37,740 nucleotides of DNA. It comes from Thermoplasmatota archaeon. GTDB lineage: Archaea; Thermoplasmatota; E2; DHVEG-1. The notes below the pieces were generated by a model that was given only the letters and a program-made list of their open reading frames with translations, made no database searches and was not told the origin of the DNA. Below are positions 27,163-37,590 of the stretch, one piece after another. Every line of letters begins with the position of its first letter. Position 1 is the stretch's first letter. The stretch spans positions 1 to 37,740 of the forward strand of contig JAJISJ010000004.1 of the NCBI GenBank assembly GCA_022848765.1, written 5' to 3'. The position numbers were made by a program, and so were the translations under genes.

Positions 27163-27618
27163 CTAATTTTGGGCTGGTAGATCAGTGGAAGATCGCCACC
27201 TTCGCAAGGTGGAGGCCGTGGGTTCAAATCCCACCCAGTCCATAGATAGATTTCGAGTGGTGTATATATTTTCATTATCACCATTCTTAGTATCTATCTT
27301 TATATCATTTGAATGTGTGTATTTACTTCTGTAGTTTTGTCCTAATCTTTCAATTCCATCTTCAACTCTCATTATATCGATTCCAAATTCTTTTGCTTTT
27401 TTTCTTTTTGATTTAATGCAGATATCTTTAATAATTCTATAAATAATATTTTTATAATCATTTTCGTGTTTACAAAGATTTGTTGAAATCATTTCAAGAT
27501 CATTTTCATTTATCTCTGGTTTTTCTATAAAAGTAAAATTAGATTTTTTCTTTTTTTTCTTCATCCAATTAATTATATATTTAAATATTTCAAAAATATT
27601 TTCATAAATTATATACAT
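27163..27618 (-). CDS. Hypothetical ORF; real status uncertain, last ~26 aa read antisense through tRNA-Ala
   Basis: C-terminus MDWVGFEPTASTLRRWRSSTDLPAQN is the tRNA antisense translation; upstream ~125 aa has a plausible charged composition; likely ATG at 27564. Confidence 0.35.
   Translation of the reverse strand: MYIIYENIFEIFKYIINWMKKKKKKSNFTFIEKPEINENDLEMISTNLCKHENDYKNIIYRIIKDICIKSKRKKAKEFGIDIMRVEDGIERLGQNYRSKYTHSNDIKIDTKNGDNENIYTTRNLSMDWVGFEPTASTLRRWRSSTDLPAQN
27171..27242 (+). tRNA. tRNA-Ala(CGC), no encoded CCA
   Basis: GGGCTGG...CCAGTCC acceptor with a G3:U70 wobble; D stem GATC/GATC; anticodon stem CCACC/GGTGG with loop TTCGCAA; T arm GTGGG TTCAAAT CCCAC. Confidence 0.96.
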
Positions 27619-27655: not shown

Positions 27656-28240
27656 TTAATTAAATTTTTTTACTAAATAAAATGAATACCATTTAAAATT
27701 AGGTATCGAAGAGTTATTCATTTTATCTATAAATTTTATATTTTTATTAGATTTAATTATATCATTTATATTATCAATATTTTTCTCAATTTCTCTTACA
27801 ATAATTTTAGTGTTGATATCCGCTGTTTTTAATATATGTTCCAATATTTTTCTTTTAGGTGATGAACAACTTGATAATATAATTGTATCATAATTTTTTG
27901 CAGGATATTTTTGACCATTTCCTATATCGATATTTATTTTTTTTTCCAATTTTTTTTTATTAATAACTTTTTGTGCAAATTTAACTGCTATTGGATCTTT
28001 ATCGATTGATACGATTTTTGCTGATGTTTTTTTTGCTAATACTAATGCAGTTATTGGATATGCGCCACAACCTATATGAAGTATTTTTTTTGACTTCGTT
28101 AATTCGAAATTTTTTATTTCTTTTTCATATTCAATACCAATTATTTTTTCATATATTATACCAAATCTGTTAAAAAAGAACGAAAGAAAATCAATAAAAT
28201 GCCAAAAATAATTTAGCTTAATTTTAATTATTTTATCCAT
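27656..28240 (-). CDS. Nicotianamine synthase-like SAM-dependent enzyme (NAS-like 1)
   Basis: KKILHIGCGAYPITALVLAKKTSAKIVSIDKDPIAVKFAQKVI...INTKIIVREIEKNID. Confidence 0.65.
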   Translation of the reverse strand: MDKIIKIKLNYFWHFIDFLSFFFNRFGIIYEKIIGIEYEKEIKNFELTKSKKILHIGCGAYPITALVLAKKTSAKIVSIDKDPIAVKFAQKVINKKKLEKKINIDIGNGQKYPAKNYDTIILSSCSSPKRKILEHILKTADINTKIIVREIEKNIDNINDIIKSNKNIKFIDKMNNSSIPNFKWYSFYLVKKFN

Positions 28241-28497
28241 AATATATTCCCAATTTTAAATGACTTATACTTGATTAAATATTAAATATTTTTCCAATTA
28301 TGTATTTAAATAAAATATTTTTTTTATTTTCAGTTTGATATTTAATTATATTTATGTAAAAAATGTTAAATATAAAATGATCATGTTCTATTTATATTAG
28401 ATAAAAAATCCTGGAAGTAATAGTTAATATAGAACTCAATAATAATAATAATTGTTTATAAAAATTATAACAAAAAGTTCTTAGGAGAAATTATGAA

Positions 28498-29784
28498 ATG
28501 AATATACTTTTAATAATGCCTCACCCTAATCCAAAAAGAAGTATTTTCTCTAAATTTCAATATCCTTCTTTAACTCTTCAGCAAATTGCTGGAGTCACTC
28601 CAAAAGAACACCATGTTAAAATAATTGATGAAAGATATGAAGATATCGATTTTTCAAAAAATTATGACTTAGTGGGAATCTCATGTTTAACCTATAATTC
28701 ATTAAGAGGTTATGAAATTTCAGAAAAATTTAGAAGGAAAGGCATTCATGTTATTTTTGGGGGTTATCATGCATCTTTATTACCCGAAGAAGTAAAAAAA
28801 CATTGTGATAGTGTAGTTATTGGAGAGGCTGAAATTACATGGCCTCTATTGTTAAAAGATTATGCAAATGGAAAACTTAAACCGTTTTATAAAGCCGATA
28901 GAGTTGTTAATTCTGATGAAATACCAGCAGCAAGACATGATATTGGAGTATATACTCCTTTTTTTGAAGCGATTCAAGCAACCCGAGGATGTCCAACTGG
29001 TTGTGAATTTTGTGCAATGAATATTGTTGAAGGAAAAAAATTTCGTGCAAGACCTGTGGATAATATTATAAACGAAATGATAAGTATTAGAGCTAAAAGA
29101 ATATTTTTTTCTGATGCCTCATTAACCATAAATCCAAAATATTCTAAAGAACTTTTTAAAGAAATGGTTGAATTAAATAAAAAATTTGATTGTTTTGGTA
29201 ATATTAATGTAATTTCACGTGATGATGAATTTTTAAGATTGTCAAGAGAGGCTGGTGTAATTAAATGGTATTTAGGAATTGAATCAATTTCTCAAGAAAA
29301 TATTAATCAAGCTGGTAAGGGTACAAATAAAGTCGAAAATTATGCAAAAGCCATTAGAAAAATTAAGGATTATGGAATGACAGTTACAGGTTTTTTTATT
29401 TTTGGATTGGATCATGATACACCTAAAATATTTGAAAGGACATTACAAGCTATGTATGATTGGGATTTAGATGAAGCATCATTTAGTATTGTTACTCCAT
29501 ATCCAGGTACAAGACTATTTAATCGTCTTGAAAAGGAAAAGAGAATAATAAATTATGATTGGTCAAAATATACGGAAGGAAATTTAAATCTAAAGTTAAA
29601 TAAAATGACTCAGGAAGAATTAATTGATGGGATCAAAAAAATAGCTTTTAATTTTTATTCAATAAAAAGCATATTTAGAAGAAGTTTTTTAACTAAAGAA
29701 ATTAATCCAATAACTTCATTTACTAAATTTATATCAAATATGAGTATAAGATCGTTTTATCATAGAGAGAAATTTAATTATTGA
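28498..29784 (+). CDS. B12-binding-domain radical SAM protein 1
   Basis: Rossmann-like N-terminus MNILLIMPHPNP...VIFGGYHASLLPEE; cluster motif TRGCPTGCEFCAM; TPYPGTRLF. Confidence 0.93.
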   Translation: MNILLIMPHPNPKRSIFSKFQYPSLTLQQIAGVTPKEHHVKIIDERYEDIDFSKNYDLVGISCLTYNSLRGYEISEKFRRKGIHVIFGGYHASLLPEEVKKHCDSVVIGEAEITWPLLLKDYANGKLKPFYKADRVVNSDEIPAARHDIGVYTPFFEAIQATRGCPTGCEFCAMNIVEGKKFRARPVDNIINEMISIRAKRIFFSDASLTINPKYSKELFKEMVELNKKFDCFGNINVISRDDEFLRLSREAGVIKWYLGIESISQENINQAGKGTNKVENYAKAIRKIKDYGMTVTGFFIFGLDHDTPKIFERTLQAMYDWDLDEASFSIVTPYPGTRLFNRLEKEKRIINYDWSKYTEGNLNLKLNKMTQEELIDGIKKIAFNFYSIKSIFRRSFLTKEINPITSFTKFISNMSIRSFYHREKFNY

Positions 29785-29806
29785 AAAATTTAATTGTGAT
29801 ATTAAT

Positions 29807-31126
29807 ATGAATATACTACTTGTATTTCCAAGAATTGAACATGGTGCATCAACGTATTATAATAAGGGAACGTGGAGTTCAATTATTTTTGGCTATCCAA
29901 TTATTACGCTACCACATATAGCTGCTATAACTCCTAAAAAACATAATGTTAAAATTATTAATGAAAATTACGAGGATATAAATTTTGATTATAATGCTGA
30001 TCTAGTTGGAATTACTACATATACAATGACTGCTCCAAGAGTTTATAAAATTGCTGATGAATTTAGATCTAGAGGTAAAAAGGTTGTTTTAGGTGGATAT
30101 CATGCAACTGCCTTACCTGATGAATCAAAAGAACATGCAGATAGCGTAATTTTAGGTATGGCTGAGGCAAATTGGCCAGAGCTTTTAGATGATTTTGAAA
30201 AAGGAGAAATGAAGTCAATATATCCAAGAAATACTAATTTTGATATGGCAAAAATTCCCCCTTTAAGGAGAGATTTGATTAAACATAATCCATTGATGGG
30301 GGCAGTTCAATCTACAAGAGGTTGTTCAAATAAATGTGAATTTTGTGCAATTACAAGTTTCTGTCATCACGGTGTAAAACAACGTCCTATAAAAAATGTA
30401 ATTGAGGAGATAAAACAAATGCCAAACAAGATATTTGTATTTCATGATCCTCATCTTACAATAAATAGAAAATACGCGCAAGAAATATTTAAAGAGATTA
30501 TTAGAAACAAAATCAGAAAAAGTTGGGTTGCAAATGGAACAGTAAACGTACTTGGAAAAGTAGATGAGAAATTTTTATCACTTGCTTATAAATCAGGTTG
30601 TGTTGAATGGTTTGTTGGATTTGAATCAGTTAGCCAAGAAGCTCTAAATGGAATAAAAAAAACTCATAATAAAGTTGAAGATTTTAAAAATATGATTAAA
30701 CGTATTCATGATTATGGTATGTCAGTTCAAGGGGGAATTATTTTTGGATTTGATGAAGATACTCCAGATGTATTTGATACAACCTTAGAAAAAATGTATG
30801 AGTTAGATATTGATGTTGTAGAAGTAAATATTTTAACCCCTTATCCAGGAACTCCATTATTTGATAGAATGGAAAAAGATGGTAGAATACTAACAAGAGA
30901 TTGGTCTAAATATAATCAAATTGATGTTGTTTTTAACCCAAAAAATATGTCAGTTGAAGAACTAAGAAATGGAGCAAGAAAAGTTGCTAAAGAATTTTAT
31001 TCTTTGAAAAATATTTTAATTAGGAATATCAAATTTATATCAACTATTAAAAGGTTCGGAGCTCTTCTTCCAGCTGGAACAAATTATAATTTCAGAAGAT
31101 ATTATAAAAAAGATTTTAATTTTTGA
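29807..31126 (+). CDS. B12-binding-domain radical SAM protein 2 (tandem paralog)
   Basis: MNILLVFPRIEHG...VVLGGYHATALPDE; STRGCSNKCEFCAI; TPYPGTPLF; collinear similarity to protein 1. Confidence 0.93.
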   Translation: MNILLVFPRIEHGASTYYNKGTWSSIIFGYPIITLPHIAAITPKKHNVKIINENYEDINFDYNADLVGITTYTMTAPRVYKIADEFRSRGKKVVLGGYHATALPDESKEHADSVILGMAEANWPELLDDFEKGEMKSIYPRNTNFDMAKIPPLRRDLIKHNPLMGAVQSTRGCSNKCEFCAITSFCHHGVKQRPIKNVIEEIKQMPNKIFVFHDPHLTINRKYAQEIFKEIIRNKIRKSWVANGTVNVLGKVDEKFLSLAYKSGCVEWFVGFESVSQEALNGIKKTHNKVEDFKNMIKRIHDYGMSVQGGIIFGFDEDTPDVFDTTLEKMYELDIDVVEVNILTPYPGTPLFDRMEKDGRILTRDWSKYNQIDVVFNPKNMSVEELRNGARKVAKEFYSLKNILIRNIKFISTIKRFGALLPAGTNYNFRRYYKKDFNF

Positions 31127-31137
31127 GGTAAATATTT

Positions 31138-32508
31138 ATGAATCCATTTTATAATCCTGCATTTTTAATTAAACTAGCTCAAAGTTATATATCAGATATT
31201 AACAGAATATGGAAATTGGACGAAAAACAAATTAGAAAATATCAAGATAAAGAATTTCGAAAAATTGTTAAATATTCATTTAATGTACCCTTATATTACA
31301 ATATATATAAAAATCATAATATTTATCCACACGATATAAAAGGATTAGATGATCTTAAAAAACTCCCAATAATTACAAAAGAAGATTTAAGAGCAAATTT
31401 CCCAGATAAAATTATTCCAAGTAACTTTGATAAAAAAAATAGTTATTTAATATCTAGTTCAGGTTCAACTGGAAAACCTTTATTTATCTATTGTAGCATT
31501 TTCTCAGCTGTAAAAAGATTAGAGGGATTTGCAAGAATTTTAAAGGCTTATGGGGGAAATTGGAGAAAATCAAAAGCATTACTAATCATAGATCTTACTC
31601 CCGGCAGCGTAGAATATGCAACATATGTAGGAGGAGGTTTATCATTTCTTGATAAAATTTTTTCATTAAGAAATATTAAGTATCTCCCGATTAAAGAAAA
31701 AGCAGAAATATTAATAAATAAAATTAATGAATTTCAACCTGAATTTCTTGGATCTGACCCTAATATGCTTAGAAAACTTGCATATTTAAAATTAAACGGA
31801 TTAGGTAATGAAATTAAACCAAAACATATTTTTTCAAGTGGAATGATGTTAGATCAATATACAAAAAAATATATTGAAAATGCATTTGAATCAACAGTTT
31901 TAGATGTCTATAGTTCCACAGAAGCGGGACCTATGGCTTTTGAATGTATTAAAGAAGGTTATTATCATATAAATTCAGATTTTATTCTTTTCGAGTTCTT
32001 AGATGATTATGATATTCCAGTTTCTTATAATGAATCTGGGAATGTTATTATAACTAAGTTATATGGGGCAGATACTCCAATTATTAGATATAATGGTCTA
32101 GAAGATACTGCAATTCCTATTGAACGTATTAGTACTTGTGGTCTAAAAAGTGAAATGATAAAAAAAATTGAAGGGCGAATAACAGATTTAATTATATTAC
32201 CAAATGGAGAATCAATATCTCCTTTAACAATTACCGGCATTCCAGCTAAAATAATGGAAGAATATAATTCATATAAAATAAAACAATTTCAAATAATTCA
32301 AAATAAGAAATCAGAGTTAGAAATATTAATCGTTATTGATGAAAAATTAAGAAATAAAGGAATATCTGTTCAGAATTTATTTAAAGAATTAAGTAAAAGA
32401 ATTAATGAACAGATAAATCGTGATATAGAAATAATCGTAAAAGAAAAGAAAACATTGGAACATGATAATCCATCAGAAAAATTTAAAGTTTTTATCTCAA
32501 ATATTTAA
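31138..32508 (+). CDS. PaaK/CapK-like AMP-forming adenylate-forming enzyme
   Basis: SSSGSTGKPL (P-loop-like A3 motif), DVYSSTEAGPMAFEC, RYNGLEDTA, KKIEGRITDLIILPNGESISP. Confidence 0.88.
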   Translation: MNPFYNPAFLIKLAQSYISDINRIWKLDEKQIRKYQDKEFRKIVKYSFNVPLYYNIYKNHNIYPHDIKGLDDLKKLPIITKEDLRANFPDKIIPSNFDKKNSYLISSSGSTGKPLFIYCSIFSAVKRLEGFARILKAYGGNWRKSKALLIIDLTPGSVEYATYVGGGLSFLDKIFSLRNIKYLPIKEKAEILINKINEFQPEFLGSDPNMLRKLAYLKLNGLGNEIKPKHIFSSGMMLDQYTKKYIENAFESTVLDVYSSTEAGPMAFECIKEGYYHINSDFILFEFLDDYDIPVSYNESGNVIITKLYGADTPIIRYNGLEDTAIPIERISTCGLKSEMIKKIEGRITDLIILPNGESISPLTITGIPAKIMEEYNSYKIKQFQIIQNKKSELEILIVIDEKLRNKGISVQNLFKELSKRINEQINRDIEIIVKEKKTLEHDNPSEKFKVFISNI

Positions 32509-32532
32509 AAAATCATCGGTAATTATTAGATT

Positions 32533-33159
32533 TTATTTTTTAATTAAATACGATTTTACTTGGCCAAGGTATTTTGATTCAACATTTTTCCCAACTTTAA
32601 ACTTCTTAAAAAAACTATCATTCATTTCGTTATTTGTTCTAACAATAATTCTTGCATCAGTTTTAACATTATCATACATATAATCAAAAAATTTTTCTAG
32701 ATTTTTAACTCCATATAAGATTATAATAACATCAAATTCATCAAGAGGGTAATCTAATCCATTTGCATATTTTAACTCTATTTTACTATTCATATTTTTA
32801 TTTGATAAGAAAATTTTTGCTTCGTTAATAGCTTTTTTATCCTTATCTATTGCAATAATTTTAGCATTTGTTTTCATTGATATTATTAGAGTTGTTGAAG
32901 GGAGTGACCCACAACCAATAACAATTATTGAATCCGATGAGGTAATTCCCGCCATTTTAATTTCTTTTTGAACTAAATCGGTATATAGATTCAAATAATT
33001 AAGAGAAATAATATTGAACTTTATTGCTATTTTTTCAAAGAGTACATATGAAAAATCAATAATTCCTTTTAATGAATTTTTTTTAAATTTTGGAGAAATT
33101 TTTTCAAAAAATATTTTTCTAGAATACGACAGGATTTTATTTATAATTTTACTCATCAT
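32533..33159 (-). CDS. Nicotianamine synthase-like SAM-dependent enzyme (NAS-like 2)
   Basis: SIIVIGCGSLPSTTLIISMKTNAKIIAIDKDKKAINEAKIFL...KTDARIIVRTNNEMND; aligns with NAS-like 1. Confidence 0.65.
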   Translation of the reverse strand: MMSKIINKILSYSRKIFFEKISPKFKKNSLKGIIDFSYVLFEKIAIKFNIISLNYLNLYTDLVQKEIKMAGITSSDSIIVIGCGSLPSTTLIISMKTNAKIIAIDKDKKAINEAKIFLSNKNMNSKIELKYANGLDYPLDEFDVIIILYGVKNLEKFFDYMYDNVKTDARIIVRTNNEMNDSFFKKFKVGKNVESKYLGQVKSYLIKK

Positions 33160-33345
33160 ATTTTAAAATTCACTATATTATTATTGTTTATTATCATTTA
33201 AACCATAGTCTACTAATTTTTTCATTAAAGATTATCACCAGCTTTTTCTTATCCTGTTAGGTCATTAAATAAATGTATTTATTAAAAACTTTGGGAATTA
33301 TCAACACAATATTGAAATTAATTGAAGTTACAATATATAAAATTA

Positions 33346-34350
33346 TTAACTATAAATATTCATAATCAATATTTGAATAAAAATATCCATGAAAATCAAA
33401 TCAAAAGATAATATAAAGTAATTAAATCCTTTTCTACCTATTATCGCACCATATTCTTCCATTTCAATTTCTTTCGTTTTTAATAGATTGAAGGAATAAT
33501 ATAAAGTATAAATCCAAAGAATTATGAAAGGTATGAGAAATATCTCTGATAATATAGTTTTAAAATATAGAATAATACCCAAAATACCTGATATTATAAA
33601 CATAGCAAATGAAATTTTTGCAGCATTTTTTTTTCCAAAAGATGTCGCATATGTTTTTACACCTATCTTCATATCTCCAGAAAAATCATGAATTCCTTCA
33701 GGTAAATCATGAGCATTATCTGCAAAATATGTAAACAATATAAGAATTATCATGTTTTGGAATTCGACTACACTTGTTGAAACATTTTCAAAAAGTGGCA
33801 TTTGAAAAATTATACTATGTTGATATGAAATAGTTGTCCATATAGCCACATATCCAAATACCACAACTATAATCCATTGGAGAGGGGTAAATATTTCTGA
33901 ATAAGCTGGAAATTTTACAATTTTTTTTAAGTATTTATTGTGTATTGCAACAAAAAAAGCAGATATAATGACAACAATAAAACACCAAAAACTTACCATA
34001 AAAGAAAAAATAAATGTTAGAAAAGAAAAAAATAAAGCAATATGAAAAAATTTTTTTGAGCTTATTCTGCCTGACGGTATTGGTCTATTTGGATGTGCAA
34101 TTTTATCTATTTCAGCATCAGTTATATCATTCCAGATAAGAGCAGCAAAATATCCTGAATACATTGCTAATATTGTTAATAATATAATTACAATGATATT
34201 GTTATTGTATGGTTGAATTCCGTAAGCAAGCATTGGTATGCTTGCATACATCAAAATATAACTAAACATTTCAAAGGGAGGCAGGGACCGCCACTTTGAT
34301 AAAAAATTTAAAGGATATATGATACTTGATCGTAAATTTTTTCTTAACAC
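33346..34350 (-). CDS. UbiA-family prenyltransferase
   Basis: NDITDAEIDKIAHPNRPIPSG (first Asp motif); DNAHDLPEGIHDFSGDMKIGVKTYATSFG (second Asp motif); polytopic. Confidence 0.9.
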   Translation of the reverse strand: MLRKNLRSSIIYPLNFLSKWRSLPPFEMFSYILMYASIPMLAYGIQPYNNNIIVIILLTILAMYSGYFAALIWNDITDAEIDKIAHPNRPIPSGRISSKKFFHIALFFSFLTFIFSFMVSFWCFIVVIISAFFVAIHNKYLKKIVKFPAYSEIFTPLQWIIVVVFGYVAIWTTISYQHSIIFQMPLFENVSTSVVEFQNMIILILFTYFADNAHDLPEGIHDFSGDMKIGVKTYATSFGKKNAAKISFAMFIISGILGIILYFKTILSEIFLIPFIILWIYTLYYSFNLLKTKEIEMEEYGAIIGRKGFNYFILSFDLIFMDIFIQILIMNIYS

Positions 34351-34394
34351 AGCCTTCTTTTCTCCAAGTATTTATATACAATTAAAATGTAAAT

Positions 34395-35723
34395 TTAAAT
34401 ATTTTTCATTTGGTCAATAAGTGTTCCATCCCATAAAATATTTTTAGATATTATTTTTTCAATATTTTTATTATCCTCAGTATTTATTATTGGAGGAAAT
34501 GAACCATCGGGTACTTTTGCAGCCCATGAAACCATTCTACGGACTATCCACCATGTGTGGGTTAATTCATTCTCAATTGTTCTACTTAAATTGTTAATGT
34601 TTATCCATTTATGTAAACCTGAACCTAGAGAGTTAAAGTTATTATAAGAGGATTCAATTATTTGTCCCCCCCTCCATATCATATATTCAGGATGAGCTGT
34701 GCACAATAGAATTCTTCCTTTATTTTTATTTGGATATATTTCAGATGTCATACATGGTTTTGAGTTATAATCTAGATCTATTATTTTATTTGTAATCTCC
34801 CAATTTCCTGCAAGATAAAATGAATAAATTAGTAAGTTTTTTAGACTGCTCTTCTCTTTTTTTATTAGTTTTGAAGCTTTATAAAAACCTTTAATAATTC
34901 CTATTATACCTCCTGTATATTTCCATGCAAATATTCTAGTAGATTCATGTTGAGATATATCACTATCAGGATATTTTGCTAAAATTTTAATATCTCTTTT
35001 TGAATTATTTGGTACTATTAAAGCGGGTCCACCCCACCATCTTATTCTTTCTGTTTCTTTTGGGTAATCAGAAAAAATTGGATTATCTTTATTTATATTA
35101 AAATCTATTGGTACACCACCACTATGAATATATGTTCCATCAATTGTTTTACCTGGTGAAAATGAAAAAACATATGACATTGCACCAATTTTTTCTGGAT
35201 TTTTTTGATTCAAGTTAAAAATTGGCATAGATATTTCTTTATAATATGATTTCACACATGATATTCCAAACGAGCTATTATCATATAATTTTTCAATAAA
35301 ATTTTTTTTATTATTATTTTTTGTTTCTAATTCTGTTATTAAAGCAGTTCCTCCGCAAATTCCTACATATCCTCCACCATCTTTGATGAAATTGATAATT
35401 TGTTCTTTCCATTTTTTAACTTTTTTTAATTTGGAAAAACCTTTTACAATAGATTCTCCATCTCCAACTCCCCCTCCTGGAACTAATAAGACATCATAAT
35501 TTTTAATATTTAACTTGCCTTTCAATATATCTTTGTCATATATATATTCAGTATTAAATCTAAAAATTTTATTATTAATCTTCCATGAATAGTTGTTTAA
35601 TATAATTGGGAAATAATGTTTTCCTGATCCCCATCCAAGAGGCTCCTCAGCAAGAATTGCAATTTTTATTATTTTGTTATATGAATTTTTTTCAGTTTGT
35701 ATCGCTCTCTCATTTGACATCAT
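34395..35723 (-). CDS. BPL_N / class I glutamine amidotransferase-like protein
   Basis: LLVPGGGVGDGESIVKG, GGGYVGICGGTALITE (Cys nucleophile elbow), IHSGG, LLCTAHPEYM (His). Confidence 0.75.
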   Translation of the reverse strand: MMSNERAIQTEKNSYNKIIKIAILAEEPLGWGSGKHYFPIILNNYSWKINNKIFRFNTEYIYDKDILKGKLNIKNYDVLLVPGGGVGDGESIVKGFSKLKKVKKWKEQIINFIKDGGGYVGICGGTALITELETKNNNKKNFIEKLYDNSSFGISCVKSYYKEISMPIFNLNQKNPEKIGAMSYVFSFSPGKTIDGTYIHSGGVPIDFNINKDNPIFSDYPKETERIRWWGGPALIVPNNSKRDIKILAKYPDSDISQHESTRIFAWKYTGGIIGIIKGFYKASKLIKKEKSSLKNLLIYSFYLAGNWEITNKIIDLDYNSKPCMTSEIYPNKNKGRILLCTAHPEYMIWRGGQIIESSYNNFNSLGSGLHKWININNLSRTIENELTHTWWIVRRMVSWAAKVPDGSFPPIINTEDNKNIEKIISKNILWDGTLIDQMKNI

Positions 35724-35943
35724 ATGTATATTAATTAGATATATTCATTATTTTTTAATTTTTACATTTATAAATTATTTTCAAGTAATTTTATAACATT
35801 TAAGGGTCATTATGAATATATTTGTATACATATTAATATATTTTATTGATTGAACTTAATATTTTATTAACCAATATTTATGTACTATATTATTCATTTA
35901 GATTTCAATATAAATCAAAACCCTATTAAATGGAATAATTAAC

Positions 35944-37125
35944 ATGAACGTTTTTAAAAATAAATATATTTTTGAAAATAATAAATCAAAATCCATTAAA
36001 ATCTCATCAAATAAAAAAATAATGGTAGTTAATAATATAATATTATTTGAAGATTTTTTTAAAGTTGGTTTGAATATTTATAAAAATAATAAATATTGGG
36101 TTCAACCTTTTTGGAAAGAAATGAAGACCTTTTTTTATAAAAAAGATTTGTTTTGGACTCATGGAGATTGTAAACTTTTTATTGCCTATAAAAATAATAT
36201 TCCTGTAGGTAGAATTGCAGCTATTGTCGATTATAGTTTTATTAGAACAAGTAATAAGAATGCTGGTTTTTTTGGCTTTTTTGAATGTATAAATGATTCT
36301 GAAATTGCATTAAAACTTCTAAGTGAAGCGCAAAAATGGATTGCAGGAAAAAAATTAAACTTATTAATTGGACCGATAAATGGAAGGGTTGATGTTGGAG
36401 TAGGTTTTTTAGTTAAAGGTTTTCGTTCGATACCTTATTTGCTAGGAAATTATTCTCAAGAGTATTATAACAATTTTGTAGAAGAATTTGGGATGAAAAA
36501 ATTAAAGGATTTAGTTTCGTATAATATTGAGTTAAATAATAAAATTTCAGAAAAAGATATTATGAACTGTACGCAAAAATGCGAAAAAATGGGGATTAAA
36601 ATTAGAAAATTCAATCGGTTTAAATATAAAAAAGAAATGGAATGGTGGATTGATTTATTTATGAATGAATTCCATGATCATTGGGGTTATACATCAATCC
36701 CTTACGAAGAAGTGAAATCTAGGTTTGGCATTAAACAATTAAGATGGATAGTGGACCCAAAACTTTTTTTAGTGGCAGAAAAAGATAATAAACCAATTGG
36801 TTTTAGATGGTCTTTACCTGATTATAATTTATTTTTTAAGAAATTTGGTGGAAAATTAGGGGCATTGGAATTATTATATTTAATGTTTAACAAGAGTAAA
36901 ATAAATCGCGGTAGGTTTATTATTATGGGGATAAAAAAAGAGTTTAGAGGTAAAGGCATTGGAACTTGTTTGAATTATCATTCAATTTCAGAAATGAATA
37001 AAAGAGGTTATTTAAATTCAGAGTATGGATGGATTGATGAAGATAATATTGCTTCAAGAAAAGCTGGTGAGAAAATTGGTGGCCAATTATCTAAAATATA
37101 TAGAGTATATGAAAAAAATATTTGA
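35944..37125 (+). CDS. Large GNAT-fold acyltransferase (YghO-like)
   Basis: FWKEMKTFFYKKDLFWTHGDCKLFIAYKNNIPVGRIAAIVD...FFGFFECINDSEIALKLL...GPINGRVDVGVGFLVKGF; C-terminal GNAT motif IIMGIKKEFRGKGIGTCLN. Confidence 0.8.
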   Translation: MNVFKNKYIFENNKSKSIKISSNKKIMVVNNIILFEDFFKVGLNIYKNNKYWVQPFWKEMKTFFYKKDLFWTHGDCKLFIAYKNNIPVGRIAAIVDYSFIRTSNKNAGFFGFFECINDSEIALKLLSEAQKWIAGKKLNLLIGPINGRVDVGVGFLVKGFRSIPYLLGNYSQEYYNNFVEEFGMKKLKDLVSYNIELNNKISEKDIMNCTQKCEKMGIKIRKFNRFKYKKEMEWWIDLFMNEFHDHWGYTSIPYEEVKSRFGIKQLRWIVDPKLFLVAEKDNKPIGFRWSLPDYNLFFKKFGGKLGALELLYLMFNKSKINRGRFIIMGIKKEFRGKGIGTCLNYHSISEMNKRGYLNSEYGWIDEDNIASRKAGEKIGGQLSKIYRVYEKNI

Positions 37126-37227
37126 TATTACACTTAAATAAGTAAAATTGATTAATGAATTTATAATTAGTGAATATTATTCTCAATTTGAAGTTATATA
37201 TTTATTAAATTGTGGTGGCTTTCAAAT

Positions 37228-37590
37228 ATGAAAAAAATTATGGTCGTAGATAATGAACCCGATATTGTTGATTTAACTAGAACAGTTCTTGAGATTGGTG
37301 GATATAACGTTATACCGGCTTATAGTGGTGAAGAATGCTTAAAAAAACTTGATAAAAATAGTGTTGATCTTATTTTATTGGATATAATGATGCCTGGTAT
37401 GAGTGGTTGGGATGTTTTTAATAGGGTAAAGAAAAAATATTCTAAAATGAAAGTAGCATTCATGAGTGTACTTGAAATTTCAGATAAAAGAAAACAAGTA
37501 TTATTAGATGAAGGTTTATCAGATTATATAATGAAACCATTTGACAAAGACTCTCTATTAAATAAAATTGATAAAATTCTTGAAGATTGA
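37228..37590 (+). CDS. Stand-alone response regulator receiver (REC) domain protein
   Basis: KKIMVVDNEPDIVDLTRTVLEIGGYNV...DLILLDIMMPGMSGWDVF...DYIMKPFDKDSLLNKI. Confidence 0.93.
   Translation: MKKIMVVDNEPDIVDLTRTVLEIGGYNVIPAYSGEECLKKLDKNSVDLILLDIMMPGMSGWDVFNRVKKKYSKMKVAFMSVLEISDKRKQVLLDEGLSDYIMKPFDKDSLLNKIDKILED

Follow-up and report, generated by a model that had tools for sequence, protein, structure and literature searches.

The window, by which we mean the whole analysed stretch of 37,740 nucleotides from a Thermoplasmatota archaeon, contains eight consecutive genes for enzymes of small-molecule or lipid type at positions 27656–37125. Do they form a single biosynthetic gene cluster, and what could such a cluster produce? 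The initial annotation had proposed a biosynthetic neighbourhood with a gene combination known from no described pathway. Indeed, no described pathway with this combination was found in the open-access literature, and open-access papers on DUF4070, bacterial ceramide synthase-like GNATs and NAS-like archaeal enzymes yielded none either.

Layout of the island and its enzyme families

All eight open reading frames are present at the coordinates and on the strands originally assigned to them, and the reported gaps of 22 and 11 bp (rSAM1/rSAM2/ligase) and 44 bp (UbiA/GAT) are exact. A housekeeping stretch does precede the island: genes for LysRS, a MiaB-like protein and GAPDH, then pgk and the adjoining tRNA-Ala(CGC) gene (27170..27243, plus strand; ARAGORN), which forms the left border. 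The right border is marked by a gene for a stand-alone response regulator (37210..37590, plus strand), recognized by the identity of this neighbor in relatives. It was considered as a cluster member but is treated as a positional marker that is probably outside the pathway. The frame at 27163–27618 (minus strand) was not accepted as an established gene: it overlaps tRNA-Ala, its C-terminus is antisense to the tRNA, and its N-terminal part is at most a possible gene. Judging by the sequences, catalytic motifs appear intact across the island enzymes.

The rSAM1 (28498..29784) and rSAM2 (29807..31126) genes, both on the plus strand, encode proteins that are about 44% identical to each other. In both, the B12-binding, Radical_SAM and DUF4070 domains score above the Pfam cut-offs, and the CX3CX2C motif is present; Cys165, Cys169 and Cys172 of rSAM1 are invariant in 13 rSAM1 sequences. 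The earlier label of B12-radical SAM enzymes is thereby refined to the HpnP-like architecture, which consists of these three domains (PMC10697835). The similarity to HpnP has limits: the DUF4070 match covers 60–66 of 144 model positions, i.e. less than a half, the genes form a tandem linked to PaaK, and no hopanoid pathway was detected in the window genome (82% complete). The two enzymes also resemble the B12-radical SAM proteins of ladderane, hopanoid and bacteriochlorophyll pathways (TIGR04072, HpnJ, BchE), but score far below the respective equivalog cut-offs and have different partner genes.

The PaaK-like adenylate-forming ligase (31138..32508, plus strand) is homologous to PaaK structures (4r1l, phmmer E-value 1.6e-23) and has the adenylation loop SSGSTGKP; its orthologues, 49–55% identical, lie beside rSAM2. 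The proposed homology to PaaK therefore stands, whereas the protein does not qualify as a phenylacetate ligase, given 93.7 bits on the NCBIfam PaaK equivalog model against a cut-off of 646.3. It shares the sequence family and the adenylation loop with phenylacetate-CoA ligase, coenzyme F390 synthetase and FlxY, but is below the equivalog cut-offs of all of them and, unlike them, is genetically coupled to a B12-radical SAM enzyme.

Two small SAM-dependent transferases, MT1 (27656..28240, minus strand, 194 aa) and MT2 (32533..33159, minus strand), had both been called NAS-like. For MT1, a NAS/CntL-like protein, this holds according to the curated Pfam model NAS (PF03059; 36.4 bits, cut-off 27.1), where the match spans profile positions 102–231 of 276 only, that is, the Rossmann domain; MT1 also scores 56 bits on the NCBIfam CntL model and matches CntL structures with E-value 7e-10. 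The label fails for MT2, which has no match to Pfam NAS and whose best NCBIfam match, CntL (32.8 bits), barely exceeds UbiG (31.9 bits), but sequence comparison places it in the same family as MT1. Both share a Rossmann domain with the GxGxxPxT motif with nicotianamine synthase and CntL. In contrast to nicotianamine synthase, they are 194–208 aa long and have no N-terminal NAS domain, so the NAS likeness does not establish aminobutyrate transfer.

The UbiA, BPL_N and GNAT labels hold, each protein scoring above its Pfam cut-off. The UbiA-type prenyltransferase (33346..34350, minus strand; PF01040, 99 bits, cut-off 34.2) contains both Asp-rich motifs, NDITDAEID and DFSGD, a feature it shares with the membrane prenyltransferase DGGGP synthase, which is also its closest solved structure (6m31). 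Its scores on two archaeal DGGGPS models are 65.5 and 62.8 bits (cut-offs 296 and 353). A DGGGPS-like copy encoded elsewhere in the same genome (L140) scores 181.6 and 157.3 bits, also below these cut-offs, and passes NF009523. On the phylogenetic tree the window UbiA is in a clade separate from L140 and L142 (support 100/100). Given this separation and the other DGGGPS-like copy, the assignment of the window UbiA as an ordinary DGGGP synthase was rejected. The cut-offs of the NCBIfam models for quinone-type prenyltransferases were not reached either.

GAT (34395..35723, minus strand) is a class I glutamine-amidotransferase/BPL_N-like protein (Pfam BPL_N, 27.9 bits, cut-off 24.2) with a Cys-His-Glu triad, Cys123 and His344-Pro-Glu346; Cys123, His344 and Glu346 are invariant in 12 homologues. 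Its structural model (pLDDT 69.6) is too weak to assign a function beyond what the triad indicates; PdxT, gamma-glutamyl peptidase and PurQ-type glutaminases are matched weakly in fold, with TM-scores normalized to target length no higher than about 0.54. GNAT (35944..37125, plus strand; PF00583, 32.9 bits, cut-off 20.7) is a tandem-GNAT N-acyltransferase, the model of which (pLDDT 83) matches the tandem GNATs 7q3a, 5kf1 and MshD. The predicted fold supports acyl transfer to an amine as its probable activity. This two-domain fold is shared with MshD, MAB_4324 and glucosamine N-acetyltransferase, but identity to them is only about 10–14%.

Clustering and genomic position in related genomes

Had the eight genes been a chance row, they would be scattered and uncorrelated in relatives. 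They were found to be neither: more than 20 relatives have parts of the island, well beyond what chance would give. Among the first 40 relatives, co-location within 20 kb was counted among the genomes having both genes of a pair, with 0.1–0.2 expected for each pair. It was observed for rSAM2 and MT2, the latter represented by its best homologue, in 8 of 9 genomes, for rSAM2 and PaaK in 6 of 6, for rSAM1 and rSAM2 in 7 of 9, for MT2 and UbiA in 6 of 9, for UbiA and GAT in 4 of 7, and for GAT and GNAT in 5 of 7. These statistics treat related genomes as independent, and hence their significance is overstated; the spread across many genera at 30–77% identity is a better argument for clustering.

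The orthologues of rSAM1 were found at 12 other loci (60–77% identity) and those of rSAM2 numbered 26 (65–76% identity); the rSAM1-rSAM2 tandem is retained in at least eight relatives. The order rSAM1-rSAM2-PaaK-MT2 is repeated in L176. MT1 homologues (38–44% identical) occur in islands at tRNA-Pro and also beside rSAM2 in L190. Overall, the genes fall into two modules, rSAM1-rSAM2-PaaK-MT2 and UbiA-GAT-GNAT, that are linked to each other but lie separately in several relatives. They are joined in the window and in L188, and, without GNAT, also in L039 and L035. In the first 40 genomes GNAT was never near orthologues of rSAM, PaaK or MT2, and the window and L188 are the only loci where it occurs together with them.

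L188, from another genus within the family, belongs to a second set of genomes, drawn later from the phylum. Its gene order is pgk, tRNA-Ala, a PaaK paralogue, a B12-radical SAM gene of a third type, rSAM2, a CrtC-like gene, PaaK, MT2, UbiA, GAT and GNAT. The series rSAM2-PaaK-MT2-UbiA-GAT-GNAT thus repeats that of the window in order and orientation, all strands matching, at 44–70% identity (rSAM2 70%, PaaK 52%, MT2 44%, UbiA 64%, GAT 64%, GNAT 58%), which ties the two modules of the window into one order. As the genes are clustered and conserved in other genera, the proposed neighborhood is supported: the eight genes are a real conserved biosynthetic gene cluster, more than a chance row.

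PaaK and HpnP-like radical SAM genes are closely associated. With the window locus left out, an HpnP-like gene lies within 5 kb of 37 of the 68 PaaK-family hits, with 1.3 expected. Moreover, for 28 adjacent pairs the PaaK and radical SAM distances are correlated (Mantel r 0.83, reached in none of 5000 permutations). The pairs were taken from loci fetched through matches to these very genes, and duplication of a pair as a block would also yield such a correlation; it is evidence for joint movement of PaaK and the radical SAM gene, not for action on a common substrate. PaaK and the HpnP-like radical SAM gene move as one genetic unit. HpnP-like radical SAM enzymes thus gain a genetic partner and a testable pathway context.

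The island occupies a fixed place between housekeeping genes. It is bordered by pgk and tRNA-Ala(CGC) in seven genera (the window, L035, L059, L188, L187, L194 and L189), and on the other side a response regulator, 77–86% identical across relatives, adjoins islands in nine of them, often close to tRNA-Thr(CGT). A second site in relatives is next to tRNA-Pro(GGG). What lies between the borders differs among genomes, its length ranging from about 9 kb up to about 30 kb. Borders formed by tRNA genes, namely Ala(CGC)/pgk, Thr(CGT) and Pro(GGG), recur in the window, L035, L058, L059, L042, L056, L068, L053, L055, L061, L067 and L188. A repeat of the tRNA-Ala 3' end that could serve as an attachment site was looked for in the window and not found; origin from a mobile element was therefore set aside, and mobility of the island is a suggestion only.

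Candidate products of the island

We lean towards the view that the eight genes belong to a family of islands, variable in content, that make a decorated isoprenoid lipid or a prenylated metabolite. Homology, intact motifs, clustering, the paired evolution of PaaK and radical SAM genes and the distinctness of UbiA from the DGGGPS-like copy are observed, whereas all substrates, the sequence of reactions and the final product are inferred. The PaaK-like ligase would activate a carboxylic acid to acyl-AMP or acyl-CoA, and the two HpnP-like enzymes would C-methylate, or possibly cyclize, unactivated carbons of this acid or of an isoprenoid chain. UbiA may use a polyprenyl diphosphate to attach the prenyl chain to this building block. 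MT1 and MT2 could transfer either methyl or 3-amino-3-carboxypropyl groups; amide formation with a CoA-activated acyl donor could fall to the tandem GNAT, and GAT may supply or remove glutamine-derived nitrogen.

The isoprenoid nature of the product is hinted at by genes that related islands add: a second type of UbiA, a weakly CrtC-like protein, an SDR scoring on the OleD and HpnA models and a UDP-glycosyltransferase. The HpnP-like architecture, which is that of the hopanoid C-2 methylase and of the terpenoid-methylase type, likewise points to an isoprenoid substrate for the radical SAM enzymes. That the product is decorated is suggested by genes for sulfotransferases and arylsulfotransferase-like proteins next to GNAT-GAT in relatives. 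An isoprenoid built from prenyl diphosphates, without carotenoid or hopanoid precursors, fits best.

Several observations count against this reading or qualify it. The modules sit apart in several relatives, with GNAT joined to the rest in two loci only. No substrate has been assigned to HpnP-like proteins beyond the HpnP clade (PMC10697835), and the DUF4070 match is partial. Some cobalamin radical SAM enzymes do not methylate, but form rings or rearrange their substrates (PMC13142503), so methylation by rSAM1 and rSAM2 is not assured. Finally, the CrtC-like proteins of relatives are just under the Pfam cut-off, and there is no match in the window genome, which is fragmented as well as incomplete. 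More tentatively, the islands might define a new class of archaeal lipids or natural products, in which a dedicated, co-evolving HpnP-like enzyme modifies an acyl unit activated by PaaK and the island's own UbiA joins it to an isoprenoid, with species diversifying the product as tailoring genes are exchanged in these islands adjoining tRNA genes.

The strongest competitor, which we nevertheless consider unlikely, is modification of membrane ether lipids: the HpnP-like enzymes would methylate or cyclize isoprenoid chains or the glycerol backbone, UbiA would be a divergent ether-forming enzyme, and the other proteins would build head groups. The solved structure closest to UbiA is consistent with this, as are a phosphatidylglycerol-lysyltransferase-like gene in the G010 island and the sulfo- and glycosyltransferases recurring in relatives. 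On the other hand, the window UbiA clade is separate from the DGGGPS-like copy, the island content differs sharply between genera, unlike that of core lipid genes, and we know of no role for PaaK, GAT or CrtC-like proteins in ether-lipid synthesis. The enzymes known to modify archaeal tetraethers are radical SAM proteins (PMC11186832, PMC8941075), which again speaks for an ether-lipid product.

A prenylated aromatic or quinone-like compound is less probable still. PaaK homologues activate aryl acids; the ligase could supply an aromatic acid to be prenylated by UbiA and methylated by MT1 and MT2, and the CrtC-like proteins of relatives could hydrate or cyclize the prenyl tail. The pairing of UbiA with a small methyltransferase is of the quinone type, and the arylsulfotransferase-like genes beside GNAT-GAT agree with an aromatic product. 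However, the islands yielded no identifiable gene for the synthesis or hydroxylation of an aromatic ring, the ligase falls far short of the cut-off for phenylacetate ligases, and UbiA does not reach the quinone-type models.

It is quite improbable that unrelated genes were gathered at a hot spot flanked by tRNA genes and share no pathway. The variable content next to tRNA genes and the modules that can occur apart would be expected in such a case, but order and orientation are kept in L188, PaaK and radical SAM genes stay together at several places in the genomes and show parallel evolution, and the window has no attachment repeat of the tRNA end. Modification of a carotenoid or hopanoid (C30/C40 terpenoid), suggested by the HpnP-like enzymes and by the CrtC-like proteins of relatives, is hardly credible and was disfavored, as no phytoene/squalene synthase (SQS_PSY) match was found in the window genome (82% complete) or in most of the 30 relatives and of the island-carrying genomes, while the same search gave matches, as it should, in 7 of 14 control genomes.

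Carriers of the island and related gene groups

Archaea of the MBG-D/Thermoprofundales/DHVEG-1 group are common in sediments and uncultured. The carriers of the island are probably uncultured Thermoplasmatota of this group. Named matches above 47% identity are from Thermoplasmatota metagenome-assembled genomes, including those from cold seeps, Guaymas and Great Salt Lake, with one labelled Euryarchaeota only; the Great Salt Lake matches suggest this group because DHVEG-1/Thermoprofundales are present in sediments of that lake (PMC11287216). Relatives of rSAM2 (E-value below 1e-70, a threshold that also admits paralogues) were found in 64 of 243 genomes of the phylum, nearly all from one class. 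No description of specialized metabolism in these archaea was found in the open-access literature. A product that is a membrane lipid would offer a candidate biomarker of benthic archaea, and a diffusible one would represent a new archaeal natural product family.

Members of the island families also occur in other surroundings. GNAT/GAT relatives in L060, L071, L072, L143 and L146–L148 are accompanied by Sulfotransfer_3 and arylsulfotransferase-like genes and by a gene for an uncharacterized protein of about 1100 aa. In L177, L178, L180–L182 and L184–L186, rSAM2 is followed by citrate-synthase C-terminal, citrate-lyase-alpha and HD-domain genes. L051 (G026:C11) has five HpnP-like radical SAM genes, of which two are truncated at contig ends, and a MiaB-like gene within 6.9 kb. 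A second, divergent pair of PaaK and HpnP-like radical SAM genes is widely conserved at other places in many relatives (L008:1201-3975 in the window genome itself and L118–L129); it often adjoins a conserved operon that includes a gene for a 4Fe-4S protein, and genes for large Ig-domain proteins.
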